Shown here in pieces: positions 8,380 through 14,409 of a DNA stretch of 64,000 nt; position 1 is the first letter of the stretch; the number at the start of each line of letters is the position of its first letter. Location: the NCBI GenBank assembly GCA_022820995.1, contig JAJEEM010000058.1:62001-126000 (forward strand), read 5' to 3'. Source of the stretch: Gemmatimonadota bacterium (lineage in GTDB: Bacteria; Gemmatimonadota; Gemmatimonadetes; Palauibacterales; Palauibacteraceae). The position numbers were made by a program, and so were the translations under genes. The notes under the pieces are model-generated. The model was not told the origin of the DNA. It saw only the letters and a list, made by a program, of their open reading frames with translations, and searched no databases.

Positions 8380-9684
8380 TCAGGCGGGGATGCCGTGCTT
8401 CACGGCTCGCGTCATCGCGTCGACGAAGCGGTCGAGTTCCTCGAGCGTCGTGTAGGTGGACGGCGAGATCCGCAGGCCCGTGAACTCGGCGTGGTTGATG
8501 CCGACGGTGAAGATCCGGTGCTTGTTCCACAGCCAGTTGCGGAGGGCGCTCGTGTCGATCCCCTCGACCTGGACGTTCGCGATCCCGCACGCGAAGCCGG
8601 GCTTGAGGCTCGTGTTGAGGCGCACCCGGTCGTGCTCCAGGAGCTGCTCGGCCCAGTAGTTCCGCAGGTGGACGAGCCGCGCCTCCTTGCGCTCGCCGCC
8701 GACGAGCTGGTGGAAGGTGAGCGCTTCGCCGATGGCGAGGAAGTTGGCCTCGGGATGCGTGCCGATCGCCTCGAACTTCCGGATGTCGTCGTTGCTGCTC
8801 TCGGGCGCCGCCTGCAGCGGCCAGATCTCGGGGATCTTTTCCCTCCTCACGTAGAGGAGGCCCGTGCCGACGGGAGCGTGCAGCCACTTGTGGAGGCTCA
8901 CCGCGTAGTTGTCGCAGTTGAGCTCGGAGAGCGTAAAGTCATGGTGCGCCATCGAATGTGCGCCATCGACGATGACCGGGATGTCGTAGCCGCGCGCCAT
9001 CTCCACGACCTCGCGCACGGGGAGGATCTGCCCGGTGATGTTGATCATGTGGCACATGAGGATGAGGCGCGTACGGTCGGTGATCTGCTCCTCGAACAGG
9101 CGCACGATCTCCGCCGGATCCTCGGCCGGGATCGGGATCTTGAACTGCTTCATCACGATCCCCTCGCGGCGCTCGCGCTGCTTGAAGGTCGTGATCATGC
9201 GCCCGTAATCCTGCGTCGTCGTCACGACTTCGTCCCCGCGCGCCAGGTCGTAGCCGTTCTGCAGGATCTGGAGGCCCTCCGAGGCGTTGCGCGTGATCGC
9301 GACCTCCTCGGGGTCCACGTCCCACTGCCGGGCGAGGCGGGCGCGGACGCCCTCCCGCTGCGGCTCCAGGATCTGCCACCCGTTGTAGACCGGGATCTGG
9401 TTCGCGAAGTCGAGGTCCCGCTTCATCGCCTCGAGAACGTGGGCGGGCGTCGGGCTCACGCCCCCGTTGTTGAGGTTGACGAGGGAACGGTCGGTCGTGA
9501 ACGCCTTCTGGATCTCGAGCCAGAACTCCTCGTCGCGCGCGATCTCCCCGGAGGAGCCGGGCGTGCGCGAAGCCTCCCGGGCCGCGGCGATGGCGGTGTT
9601 CCACTTCGTCGGAACCATGGTCATGGCTCCCGCGGCTGCGGCGGAGCCTCCGAGGCGGGCGAGGAATCGTCGGCGGGTGGGCAT
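8380..9684 (-). CDS. Tat-exported class V aminotransferase-fold protein (isopenicillin N epimerase-like)
   Basis: A 434-residue protein whose start is fixed by CAGGAGG before ATG 9684. The N-terminus MPTRRRFLARLGGSAAAAGAM is a twin-arginine signal. The body is a class V PLP enzyme: NLNNGGVSPTP substrate loop, NASEGLQIL cofactor loop, VDGAHSMAHHDF with the aspartate for the pyridine nitrogen, and SLHKWLHAPVG with the Schiff-base lysine Lys266. Similar exported enzymes are annotated as isopenicillin N epimerase-like or cysteine desulfurase-like. The substrate is unknown. Export by Tat fits cytoplasmic loading of PLP. Divergent from the SLC12-like gene. Confidence 0.88.
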   Translation of the reverse strand: MPTRRRFLARLGGSAAAAGAMTMVPTKWNTAIAAAREASRTPGSSGEIARDEEFWLEIQKAFTTDRSLVNLNNGGVSPTPAHVLEAMKRDLDFANQIPVYNGWQILEPQREGVRARLARQWDVDPEEVAITRNASEGLQILQNGYDLARGDEVVTTTQDYGRMITTFKQRERREGIVMKQFKIPIPAEDPAEIVRLFEEQITDRTRLILMCHMINITGQILPVREVVEMARGYDIPVIVDGAHSMAHHDFTLSELNCDNYAVSLHKWLHAPVGTGLLYVRREKIPEIWPLQAAPESSNDDIRKFEAIGTHPEANFLAIGEALTFHQLVGGERKEARLVHLRNYWAEQLLEHDRVRLNTSLKPGFACGIANVQVEGIDTSALRNWLWNKHRIFTVGINHAEFTGLRISPSTYTTLEELDRFVDAMTRAVKHGIPA

Positions 9685-9970
9685 GCGGCCTCCTGGCTGG
9701 TTCGGCGCGGTCGTCGCCTTCAATGCTGCTGCCAAATAGACGGTTTTCGGCGCACCGAGCAAGGGCGATGGCTCCGGCGTCCTCGAACGGCCGTTCGCCG
9801 GGGGGGCGCCTGCCGTTCCGAACACGCAGCCCGTGCAACGCCCGACCCCAGGCCTGCGGGCAGCGGCACAACACTGCATTATGCCTCGGTGTCATCTCAT
9901 TGCCGCGCACAAAATAGCGCGCGCGGCGCCAACCCCTGCGGAGCCTTCGTCAGGCGTCCGGGAGGTGGAG

Positions 9971-12235
9971 ATGAGCAGTCGAGACCCGCGGTCCGTGAAG
10001 TCGCCGGCCCCCGCGTCGTCCCATGCGGGCCACGGCTTCGGCACCGCACCCGTCTTCCTGGCGTCGATCAGTACGATCCTCGGAGCCATCCTCTTCCTGA
10101 GGTTCGGATACGCGGTGGGGCACACGGGCCTGTGGGGCACGATGATGATCATCGTCATCGGGCATACCGTGACGATTCCCACGGTGCTCGCCGTCTCGGA
10201 GATCGCAACGAACCGGCGCGTTGCCGGCGGGGGTGCGTACTTCATCATCAGCCGCTCGTTCGGAACGACGATCGGCGGTTCGATCGGGATCGCGCTGTAT
10301 CTCTCGCAGGCGATATCCGTCGCCTTCTACCTCGTCGCCTTCGCTGCAGCCTTCGAGCCGGTCTTCACCTGGGCAGCCGAGGCAACGGGCGTTGCGCCCA
10401 CGCTTCAGTGGGTCAGCGTACCCGCCCTCGCCGTCCTCGTCGTCATGATGCTGACCCGGGGGGCCGACCAGGGTGTGCGGGTGCTCTGGATCGTGTGCGG
10501 CATCCTGGCGGCTTCGATCGCCGCTTTTCTCTTCGGCAGCGGGCCCGCCGACATCCGGCCCGATGGATTGAACCTGACATCCACGATCGCGGCGCCCGAC
10601 GGATTCGGCGTCGTCTTCGCCACATGCTTCCCCGCCTTCACGGGGATGATCGCGGGACTGGGCCTGTCGGGGGACCTCAAGGATCCCAAGCGGTCCATCC
10701 CGCTCGGGACGATCGGCGCCACCTTCGCCGGCATGGCCATCTACTCGCTGGTCGCGATCAAGCTGGCGCAGAGCGCCACTCCGGAGGCCCTTGCGGGGGA
10801 CCAGTTCATCATGGCCCGGATCGCGGCGTGGGGGCCGGCGATCTACCTCGGTCTCGCGGCTGCGGCCTTCTCCTCCGCGCTCGGTTCCATCATGGTGGCC
10901 CCCCGAACCCTTCAGGCGCTCGCGCGAGACCGGGTCTTTCCGGTCGCGAAGGTCAATCGCCTCCTGGCCATGGGACGGGGCGAGGCGGGCGAGCCCATCA
11001 ACGCCGTCTACGTGTCCGTGGCGCTCGCCGCCGTGTTCGTTCTGCTCGGAGACATCGATTTCATCGCCCAGATCCTGAGCATGTTCTTCATGGTGACGTA
11101 CGGTACGCTGTGCTCCGTGGCCTTCCTGGAGTACTTCGCGGGGAACCCGTCCTATCGTCCCACATTCCGGTCGCGCTGGTACATCTCTCTGCTCGGCGCC
11201 GTCGTGTGCTTCCTCATGATGTTCCAGATGAGTCCGCTGTACGCGATCCTGGCCATCGCGATCATGCTTGCCATCTACGTGGGCCTCAAGCGGTCCCGGC
11301 GGGGAGAACGGGACTTGGCCGCGATCTTTCAGGGGGCGATGTTCCAGCTCGTCCGCCGGCTGCAGATCACGTTGCAGAAGAACCGGAGCGCCCAGCAGGA
11401 GGGCGGCTGGCGTCCTTCCTTCGTGGCCCTGACGAGACACGGCGACCGGCGCGTGGCGCAGTTCGACGTCCTGCGGTGGATCTGTCACCGGCACGGGTTC
11501 GGACACTTCGTTCAGCATATGAAGGGGGAGTACTCGCTGGAGACGGAACTCGAAGCCCGCGCTCAGCTCACGAGGCTGGTGCGGCGCTCCGATCTGAGCC
11601 GCGCCGGAACCTTCGTCGACACGCTGATCTCCCCGTCCTTCGAGGCGGCCGTCACCCAGGCCCTGCAGTTCCCGGGCATCTCGGGACTTCCGAACAACAG
11701 CATTCTGCTGGAATTCGATCATGAACACCCGGACGAGATTGCCGACGTCGGGCGAGCCGTCACACTGGCGGTGTCCTCGAAGTTCAACGTGGTCGTCCTC
11801 CGCTCCACCACCTACCGCTTCGGCTATCGCGCCGCGATCCACGTCTGGCTGACGCCCGAGACACTCCCGAGCGCGGCCATGATGCTGATGCTGGCGTACA
11901 TCATCGTCGGACACCCCGAGTGGCGGACCGCCGAGATCCGGGTGTTCGCCTGCGTCGGCGGAGGGGGGAACGAGACGGAGGCCGACCAGCTGTCCGCGCT
12001 CATCGACCAGGGCCGTCTCCCGATCGCGCGAAAGAACATCGAAACGCTGCCCGTCCAGTCAGAGCCCGGTATCGAGGCCGAGGTAAGGCATCGTTCCTCC
12101 GACGCGGACCTCGTGATCGCCGGCCTTTCGAAGGAACAAATCGCAGGAGGCGACTTCGCGGGTTTCCTGCGGAACTACGCCGCGGCGAACGACATCCTCT
12201 TCGTGCACGCGGTGGAGCGCATTGCGATCGACTGA
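9971..12235 (+). CDS. SLC12-like cation-chloride cotransporter / APC permease with cytosolic domain
   Basis: A 754-residue protein, start fixed by GGAGGTGGAG before ATG 9971. Residues about 25-440 hold roughly 12 hydrophobic helices with the APC/SLC12 pattern: GTAPVFLASISTILGAILFLRFGYAVG opens TM1 as in Na-K-Cl cotransporters, and GLSGDLKDPKRSIPLGT is the conserved loop after TM6. The following 300 residues are soluble, with an SLC12-C-like region (RPSFVALTRHGDRRVAQFDVLRWI) and a nucleotide-binding-like end (SDADLVIAGLSK). The likely role is electroneutral ion cotransport; amino-acid transport is the alternative. Confidence 0.85.
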   Translation: MSSRDPRSVKSPAPASSHAGHGFGTAPVFLASISTILGAILFLRFGYAVGHTGLWGTMMIIVIGHTVTIPTVLAVSEIATNRRVAGGGAYFIISRSFGTTIGGSIGIALYLSQAISVAFYLVAFAAAFEPVFTWAAEATGVAPTLQWVSVPALAVLVVMMLTRGADQGVRVLWIVCGILAASIAAFLFGSGPADIRPDGLNLTSTIAAPDGFGVVFATCFPAFTGMIAGLGLSGDLKDPKRSIPLGTIGATFAGMAIYSLVAIKLAQSATPEALAGDQFIMARIAAWGPAIYLGLAAAAFSSALGSIMVAPRTLQALARDRVFPVAKVNRLLAMGRGEAGEPINAVYVSVALAAVFVLLGDIDFIAQILSMFFMVTYGTLCSVAFLEYFAGNPSYRPTFRSRWYISLLGAVVCFLMMFQMSPLYAILAIAIMLAIYVGLKRSRRGERDLAAIFQGAMFQLVRRLQITLQKNRSAQQEGGWRPSFVALTRHGDRRVAQFDVLRWICHRHGFGHFVQHMKGEYSLETELEARAQLTRLVRRSDLSRAGTFVDTLISPSFEAAVTQALQFPGISGLPNNSILLEFDHEHPDEIADVGRAVTLAVSSKFNVVVLRSTTYRFGYRAAIHVWLTPETLPSAAMMLMLAYIIVGHPEWRTAEIRVFACVGGGGNETEADQLSALIDQGRLPIARKNIETLPVQSEPGIEAEVRHRSSDADLVIAGLSKEQIAGGDFAGFLRNYAAANDILFVHAVERIAID

Positions 12236-12243
12236 CACGGGAC

Positions 12244-12271
12244 GACGCTCGTTCCGGCGCGGCGGAGCGTC
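12244..12271. terminator. Candidate bidirectional hairpin between convergent genes
   Basis: GACGCTC (12244-12250) and GAGCGTC (12265-12271) form a perfect 7-bp stem with a 14-base GC-rich loop, between the transporter stop and the selenoprotein stop. There is no T-run, so intrinsic termination is uncertain. Confidence 0.35.
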
Positions 12272-12824
12272 AGCGAGAACCGACGATCATGGCCAGGATC
12301 GGGTTGATCGCTTCCTCGGCCAAGCGCTCGAGTTCGGCGGCGGTACGGTTCTGAATCGGATGCGGGACCCAGACGATTCCGGGCTCGAAGCCGAGCGAGC
12401 GCGACTGGCTGCGGGCGGCCGTCTCGAACTCCGTCGTGACGACGAAACAGCCGGGGATCCCTCGTTCATCCAGGTCTCTGAGGTCGTGCAGACCGCACGA
12501 CGTGCAGGACCCTCAGTCGGCCAATGCCTGCACGACGACATCGGCTTCCGCCGCGATCCTCTGCAGGAGTTCAGTAGGCGCCCGCCGCGCGTTCGTCGGC
12601 TTGTCCGTGCGGATCGTCTCGATGCCGAGGGCGTCGAGGCGCGTCTTCACGTGGTCGAGGAACTCGTCGCTGCGGAGCTTGCCGATCCCCTGGAGCGCGA
12701 CGACGCGGCCTTCGAGCGACGGCGGAGGCGTGCGCCGGGGCCGCATCTCCGGGGCGAGTTCGGAGGTGGGATCGTGGAGGACGGTGGCCGGCGTTGCCGG
12801 GCCCGTCGCGGTCGGAGCGGTCAT
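12270..12824 (-). CDS. UGSC-family selenoprotein with in-frame UGA read as selenocysteine
   Basis: A 184-residue protein is obtained if TGA at 12515-12513 is read through as selenocysteine (residue 104). Before it lies MTAPTATG...VVALQGIGKLRSDEFLDHVKTRLDALG...EADVVVQALAD. After it the frame continues as GSCTSCGLHDLRDLDERG, IPGCFVVTTEFETAA, GIVWVPHPIQNR and LERLAEEAINPILAMIVG to a TGA at 12272. The residues U-G-S-C are the signature of the UGSC family, which has selenocysteine or cysteine at this site. The downstream part is clearly protein-like, with a family-like VPHPIQN segment. It overlaps the upstream thioredoxin-like gene by ATGA. A selenol-based redox role is likely; the substrate is unknown. 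Confidence 0.9.
12472..12515 (-). promoter_or_regulatory. Bacterial SECIS element with selenocysteine UGA
   Basis: Directly after the UGA (12515-12513) the mRNA folds into a two-part hairpin. A lower stem pairs GGGTC (bases 1-5 after UGA) with GACCT (37-41). An upper perfect 7-bp stem GTCGTGC/GCACGAC (12501-12483) carries the 5-base loop GGUCU at bases 19-23 after UGA. From memory, the E. coli fdhF SECIS has the same GGUCU loop at the same distance. This is the expected binding site of SelB. Confidence 0.85.
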
Positions 12825-14272
12825 GTCTCGATCTCTCTCGTGATGGGGTGTGAGTGCTGCCAGGCGCGGCCGCCGGGCCAGCCGGCCAGGATCGCGGAGT
12901 ACAGACCGGCCGCGCCGCCGGCCCGGGCGAGAAGCAGTCCGCCGGGCGGAAACTTCGGCACGTGGCGGCGCGTCTCCGAGTCCGGCACGCCCTCCGCGAG
13001 GCCCCCGGCGCCGCGGACCACCTCGCCCAGCGGCCGCGTCGTCGCCTCCAGCAGCGCCTCGGTGATCCGCGCCCGGTCCCAGCCCGCCTCCCGGTAGATG
13101 GCGTAGTGTTCGGGCGAGAGGAGCAGCACCGCGTGCGCCCACTCGCAGATCTTCGGGTGGCAGACGGCGAGCAGGCACGCCGCGAGCGACGCGGTGAGTT
13201 CTTCCGGCGTGCGGGACGCCTGGTCCATGATCCCCTGCACGCCCTCGCCCTGGAACAGAGTGACGGCGTCCGTCCCCAGCGCGACGCCGCGCGAGACGGA
13301 AAGCGGCTCCCACTCCTCGTCCGACTCGTCCTCGGCGAAGCAGAAGGTGTACTTGCTCGGCGCGCCGAAGGTGGAACGGTCGATCTCGCCGGGGCGTCCG
13401 CCGCCCACGTTTTGCACGATGAGGTTGAGGGCGCGCCCGATGGTCGCGTTCGCCCGGTTCCCCTGTCCGAGGACGTTGAGCCCCGAGTTCATCCCGATCC
13501 GGCGCGCAATGGGGCCGTTCACGATGATGAGGGGGGCCGTGAAGCAGGTGCTGCACAGGATCCCGTGCAGCGTGAAGTCCGGATCGAGCGCCGCCTCGAG
13601 CGCCGCGAGCAGCACGGGCATGTACTCGGGCTTGCAACCCGCGAGCACGGCGTTGATCGCCACCTTCTCCACCGTGCATTCCGCATAGTCCGGCGGCACG
13701 GCGCCCACCATTTCGTCCGGGGCCCGCGACGTGCCCGCGAGCATCCGGAGGATCCGCTCCGGGGTCGGGGGGACGACCGGAAGCCCGTCCGTCCAGCCGC
13801 GGTCGAAGCACGCTTCCACGGCATCGGCGTGCGGCTCCAGCGCCACCCGCCTTGCCTCGATACCCGTATCCCCGAAGCGCGCGCGCAGGCGCTCGGCGGC
13901 GCCCGGTGCTAACGACAGGGAACCGCAACCCGGGCGGAACGCCGCCAGATCCTCCCCCAGATCGGGGATCGACGTCAACCCACGCCACTCCTCGCGGTCC
14001 CAGCCGACGGCGCGGCCCGTCTCCCGTCCATCCTCGAAGCGCACGAGCGTGGGGACCGTCTCGATGTCGAGCCGGAAGGAGTGTTCGAGTTCCGTGTCGT
14101 CGATCACGCCCGGGACGGCGGCGGGGAAGTCCGGATCGTCCTGGCTGAAGACGGTGAGGCCGTCGCCTTCGGCGGAGAGCCGTTCCAGCACGGGTTCGAC
14201 GAGTTGACAGGTGGGGCAGTCCCGCTTCACGACGACCGCGAGACCGTCCTCCGGCAGCGGAGCGTGTTTCAT
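12821..14272 (-). CDS. Thioredoxin-like CxxC protein, partner of the UGSC selenoprotein
   Basis: A 483-residue protein with an N-terminal thioredoxin-like fold: VVVKRDCPTCQLVEPVLERL with Cys19-Pro-Thr-Cys22, then DIETVPTLVRFEDG, which has the thioredoxin cis-proline context. The long second part (DGLPVVPPTPERI, CTVEKVAINAVLAGCKPEYMPV, GILCSTCFTAPLIIVNGPIARRIGMNSG) resembles a uncharacterised family seen beside UGSC proteins and in some oxidoreductase clusters. It contains several more cysteines. Stop and next start overlap as ATGA, so it should be co-translated with the selenoprotein. An alternative ATG lies at 14305. Confidence 0.75.
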   Translation of the reverse strand: MKHAPLPEDGLAVVVKRDCPTCQLVEPVLERLSAEGDGLTVFSQDDPDFPAAVPGVIDDTELEHSFRLDIETVPTLVRFEDGRETGRAVGWDREEWRGLTSIPDLGEDLAAFRPGCGSLSLAPGAAERLRARFGDTGIEARRVALEPHADAVEACFDRGWTDGLPVVPPTPERILRMLAGTSRAPDEMVGAVPPDYAECTVEKVAINAVLAGCKPEYMPVLLAALEAALDPDFTLHGILCSTCFTAPLIIVNGPIARRIGMNSGLNVLGQGNRANATIGRALNLIVQNVGGGRPGEIDRSTFGAPSKYTFCFAEDESDEEWEPLSVSRGVALGTDAVTLFQGEGVQGIMDQASRTPEELTASLAACLLAVCHPKICEWAHAVLLLSPEHYAIYREAGWDRARITEALLEATTRPLGEVVRGAGGLAEGVPDSETRRHVPKFPPGGLLLARAGGAAGLYSAILAGWPGGRAWQHSHPITREIET

Positions 14273-14409
14273 GTCCCCAACTATAACACGGAAGGGACCG
14301 TCCATCTAAGCTGCGCCCGCCGCCCGCATCACGTTGACATAGGCCGCGACAACGGGGTACTTCGTTGCCCTGTGCCTGCCGATAGCCGAGGAGGTCGTGC
14401 GGAGGACGC

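Follow-up and report, generated by a model that had tools for sequence, protein, structure and literature searches.

A Probable UGSC-Family Selenoprotein and Its Coupled Thioredoxin-Domain Partner Gene in a Relative of Candidatus Palauibacter

1. Introduction

On the minus strand of a 64,000-nucleotide stretch of DNA from a marine bacterium of the Gemmatimonadota (contig JAJEEM010000058.1; the whole stretch is hereafter called the window), a reading frame ends at a TGA codon and continues beyond it in the same phase. This raises the question of whether the TGA is a stop or the codon of a selenocysteine (Sec) residue, and of what kind of protein the uninterrupted frame would encode. A preliminary description of the locus placed it in the UGSC family of selenoproteins, whose members were said to carry either Sec or Cys at the relevant position. 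This agrees with the report of the family from marine metagenomes in 2008, which counted 255 Sec and 21 Cys forms and found UGSC among the commonest selenoprotein families of ocean metagenomes (PMC2398784). According to a 2026 review, UGSC is functionally uncharacterised, as are most such families (PMC13188914), and the text of the paper describing Palauibacterales makes no mention of selenoproteins (PMC10469786). Hence, this kind of selenoprotein was already described in 2008 and is modelled in Pfam and NCBIfam, and the gene in the window is an added member; a coupled partner gene next to UGSC is documented here. The conserved partner and the predicted fold provide a concrete protein pair to study in a family lacking an assigned function. 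Moreover, the locus matters for annotation: as the preliminary description expected, gene callers restricted to the standard code cut the gene at residue 103.

2. Reading Frame and Predicted Product

The gene and the codon in question are located as follows.

12270–12824, minus strand: probable UGSC-family selenoprotein gene of 184 codons, from ATG 12824–12822 to the stop TGA 12272–12270 (PF24696, E 2.4e-32).
12513–12515, minus strand: in-frame UGA, the probable Sec104 of UGSCTSC (UxxCxxC), conserved as TGA across 37/37 genomes and 69/69 loci.

Read on the minus strand with the TGA taken as U, the frame comprises 103 residues, U104 and 80 further residues before a stop. The preliminary description was reproduced exactly in its 103-residue frame closed by TGA 12515–12513, and also in the continuation over 80 residues to the stop at 12272, in the presence of GSCTSCGLHDL, IPGCFVVTTEF and VPHPIQNR in the downstream part, and in the position of the UGA directly before GSC, which gives U-G-S-C in the context ALAD-U-GSCTSCG. 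The mechanical list of reading frames contains a 667-residue frame ending at 12513, which fuses out-of-frame partner sequence to the 5' half of the UGSC gene.

The Pfam model UGSC (PF24696) aligns with residues 16–180 over profile positions 2–170 of 172, at 112.9 bits against a gathering cut-off of 25, in one continuous stretch that spans the TGA, and the U(or C)-G-S-C motif required of the family is present as U104-G-S-C107. The NCBIfam model NF041046, searched with Sec written as C, matches all 30 UGSC members examined (best E 7.3e-43); the protein of the window reaches 117.7 bits (E 4.2e-34), slightly under the equivalog cut-off of 125. Apart from this small difference, the protein resembles the described family (PF24696, NF041046, PMC2398784) in carrying the same domain at nearly full length, with Sec in U-G-S-C, in a family found mostly in its Sec form. 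We consider it highly probable (about 0.93) that the product of 12270–12824 is a UGSC-family selenoprotein of 184 residues, with Sec specified by the UGA at codon 104, and that this gene is paired with a thioredoxin-domain partner gene. The same product with Sec104 had been proposed in the preliminary description, and the continuity of the PF24696 match, the Sec machinery and the conservation of the TGA support it.

3. Selenocysteine Machinery of the Genome

The window belongs to a 3.7 Mb genome of a Candidatus Palauibacter relative within the Gemmatimonadota. The four components suggested earlier as a check were all found in this genome, namely tRNA-Sec (79.7 bits against a cut-off of 47, with ARAGORN in agreement and the anticodon tca), selA (492 bits), selB (368 bits, on the same contig as tRNA-Sec) and selD (372 bits). 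Among 198 related genomes, selA scores above its cut-off in 152, and the Sec machinery is far more widespread than UGSC. The selD gene itself, located on the contig of the window (C78:177779-178705, equivalent to L014:1501-2427), contains an in-frame TGA in the context GAG-U-ACKLGPEDL, and SelD is a predicted second selenoprotein of this genome.

4. Conservation of the UGA Codon and Selection on Both Halves

The UGSC gene was found in 37 of the 198 relatives, each time with exactly one internal TGA; within the genus of the window, 16 of 17 genomes carry it. Wherever a locus was fetched, the codon at the Sec site is TGA (69/69, a figure in which some places are counted twice). A scan of 84,980 species genomes returned 39 UGSC loci, labelled Candidatus Palauibacter, Gemmatimonadetes/Gemmatimonadota, Longimicrobiales, and, in a few cases, Gammaproteobacteria and Alphaproteobacteria; the UGA is invariant in the homologues from Gemmatimonadota and from two metagenome-assembled genomes labelled Alphaproteobacteria. 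Four loci labelled Gammaproteobacteria (L061, L065, L067 and L069) are of the Gemmatimonadota type, the match in L061 being identical to that of G091, a genome placed in the class of the window, and these four labels are probably wrong.

No Cys form of UGSC was found among the close relatives searched. Across 30 aligned UGSC proteins, U104, G105, S106, C107, C110 and H113 are invariant, and comparison with close relatives gives dN/dS values of 0.05–0.10 on the 5' side of the UGA and 0.08–0.14 on the 3' side. Judged from these substitution patterns, purifying selection acts on both halves of the gene.

These data bear directly on the possibility that translation really ends at the TGA, or that the codon arose by sequencing error or pseudogene mutation, in which case the 3' half would be a relic or a separate frame. 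The standard code does read a stop here, and 12513 is where the mechanically listed frame terminates. However, the TGA is kept in all 69 loci and all 37 genomes, selection extends past it, the family profile runs through it without a break, and the Sec machinery is complete. Because the TGA is conserved and dN/dS is low on both sides, error, real stop and pseudogene are excluded in practice, and we assign this explanation a negligible probability. Aligning the two halves with homologues, as the preliminary description had advised, gave matches on both sides; a sequencing error, which it had named as a possible refutation, is excluded by homologues that keep the TGA at the identical place. The open frame beyond the UGA would also fit decoding of the codon by suppression as Trp or a similar residue, but the genome has tRNA-Sec and SelB, the gene has a SECIS-like hairpin, the alternative residue known in the family is Cys (PMC2398784), and most UGSC genes in the set use TGA as their true terminal stop. 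Suppression is, therefore, extremely improbable, and the reading of codon 104 as Sec is retained in what follows.

5. A SECIS-Like Hairpin Downstream of the UGA

A candidate element for directing Sec insertion, which like the partner gene is absent from the preliminary description, lies within the coding sequence.

12483–12501, minus strand: SECIS-like hairpin GTCGTGC-GGTCT-GCACGAC, suggested by folding energy and one covarying pair.

The hairpin has a 7-bp stem and the loop GGUCU, with the stem starting 11 nt and the loop 18 nt past the UGA, and the 52-nt stretch containing it folds with a minimum free energy of −21.6 kcal/mol (z −2.4). Among 24 distinct sequences, four of the seven pairs are invariant, and one further pair alternates between G-C (14 sequences) and A-U (10) and is never unpaired. 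This covarying pair falls on third codon positions, and it is G-U in L071 and L075, both labelled Alphaproteobacteria. Of the 24 sequences, 17 lack the outermost pair and 2 lack the next one. A search of Rfam with the hairpin returned no match. Given one covarying pair and the shared ancestry of the sequences, the case for a putative SECIS role is good but not overwhelming.

6. The Coupled Partner Gene

Immediately upstream of UGSC lies a second gene.

12821–14305, minus strand: partner gene of up to 494 amino acids, with an N-terminal thioredoxin-like domain (CPTC) and a domain of ~340 amino acids.

The stop TGA of the partner overlaps the ATG of UGSC as ATGA. The true start of the partner is perhaps the internal ATG at 14272–14270 (Met12), which lies near the start in many relatives of the same genus. 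A partner homologue is found directly upstream of UGSC in 67 of the 69 loci, mostly with an ATGA or TGA overlap, and in the remaining two the match starts within 70 bases of a contig end. In the set of 198 genomes, the partner is matched at full length where UGSC is present, with the exceptions of G188, which has UGSC without a partner match, and G099, which has a partner fragment at a contig edge without UGSC; beyond the UGSC genomes, only weak thioredoxin-domain matches to the partner occur. As their arrangement indicates, UGSC and the thioredoxin-domain partner make up a unit of two genes whose stop and start codons overlap.

The ~340-residue domain gave no convincing match in Pfam or NCBIfam. 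Residues ~155–494 of the partner are conserved, with many invariant positions (e.g., P179–T181, G301–G302 and PEH 398–400). Divergent partners, 35–36% identical, occur in L017–L019, where they are paired with UGSC proteins 42% identical to that of the window. In the structure model of the partner, the second domain is poorly modelled in parts, and a fold search with this model returned thioredoxins only, with no fold match for the second domain. The UGSC/Unknown_1 fusion (PMC2398784, Figure S1A) likewise joins UGSC to a second, conserved domain, although it is a single fused chain rather than two overlapping genes, and its second domain is a possible counterpart of that of the partner.

7. Predicted Fold and Possible Mechanism

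An AlphaFold model of the UGSC protein, built with 30 sequences, has a mean pLDDT of 89.9 and contains five alternating strand-helix units. Sec104 falls between the strand 96–102 and the helix 105–120. Foldseek relates this model to flavodoxins, TIR and SIS domains at TM values of about 0.4–0.5, and no thioredoxin fold occurs among its 50 best PDB matches; a PDB sequence search with the UGSC profile returned nothing credible. The predicted fold is, thus, a flavodoxin-like parallel beta/alpha arrangement, which disagrees with the earlier proposal of a Trx-like fold (PMC2398784).

The UxxCxxC motif of GrdB (PMC13188914) is shared by the UGSC protein as U104, C107 and C110. The GrdB model TIGR01917 is weakly matched by 28 of 30 UGSC members (best E 9.6e-5), and GrdB and GrdF are the families that recur among the weak matches. 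In addition to this weak profile match around Sec, UGSC would resemble GrdB and PrdB in working with a second protein. However, it is less than half the length of GrdB and scores far under the cut-offs (16.3 bits against 602 for TIGR01917), and no homologue of the remaining reductase subunits was recognised in the UGSC pair. The Pfam model GRDB (PF07355) matches neither the UGSC protein nor anything in the whole genome of the window. No common ancestry with PrdB is claimed, since a profile comparison of UGSC with the PrdB-like selenoproteins of relatives left the Sec site unaligned. These PrdB/GRDB-like proteins, found in L086–L091 from the same family, order and class, have a TGA at U-P-x-C with the frame continuing beyond it; they are further predicted selenoproteins, absent from the genome of the window.

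A tentative mechanism, the most economical one and given somewhat less than an even chance, can be outlined from the motif, the model and the partner. Sec104, at the strand-helix junction, would attack the substrate as a selenolate nucleophile, and the resulting selenenyl species would be resolved by Cys107 or Cys110 of UxxCxxC. The CxxC of the thioredoxin domain of the partner would then re-reduce the selenoprotein, while the second domain of the partner may bind or activate the substrate. By analogy, the overall working would be broadly that of the B subunits of glycine and proline reductases. It is also possible, at odds falling a little short of one in two, that UGSC functions as a general thiol/disulfide, redoxin-like oxidoreductase on peroxides or disulfides, rather than in a GrdB/PrdB-like manner on a C–N or other C–X bond; this alternative concerns function only. 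The UxxC motif, the Trx-like fold proposed in PMC2398784 and the thioredoxin-like domain of the partner are in its favor, whereas the predicted parallel beta/alpha fold without thioredoxins among the 50 best PDB matches, the recurrence of GrdB and GrdF among the weak family matches, and the fact that a thioredoxin domain is already provided by the partner argue against it. Extending the GrdB/PrdB-like proposal, UGSC and its partner might constitute a two-subunit Se-dependent reductase, in which the fused thioredoxin replaces a separate donor and the ~340-residue domain represents a new catalytic or substrate-binding family, a reading that we regard as rather unlikely.

8. Other Neighboring Genes

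In the window, an amino-acid permease (9833–12235) lies between the UGSC gene and a class-V aminotransferase (8380–9879). The LuxR-type gene and the permease that adjoin the pair were found in none of the other loci, and in three Palauibacter-type loci (L047, L050 and L051) the aminotransferase directly follows UGSC. Because the permease is absent from the fetched loci and the aminotransferase follows UGSC directly in these three, the permease looks inserted at the locus of the window.
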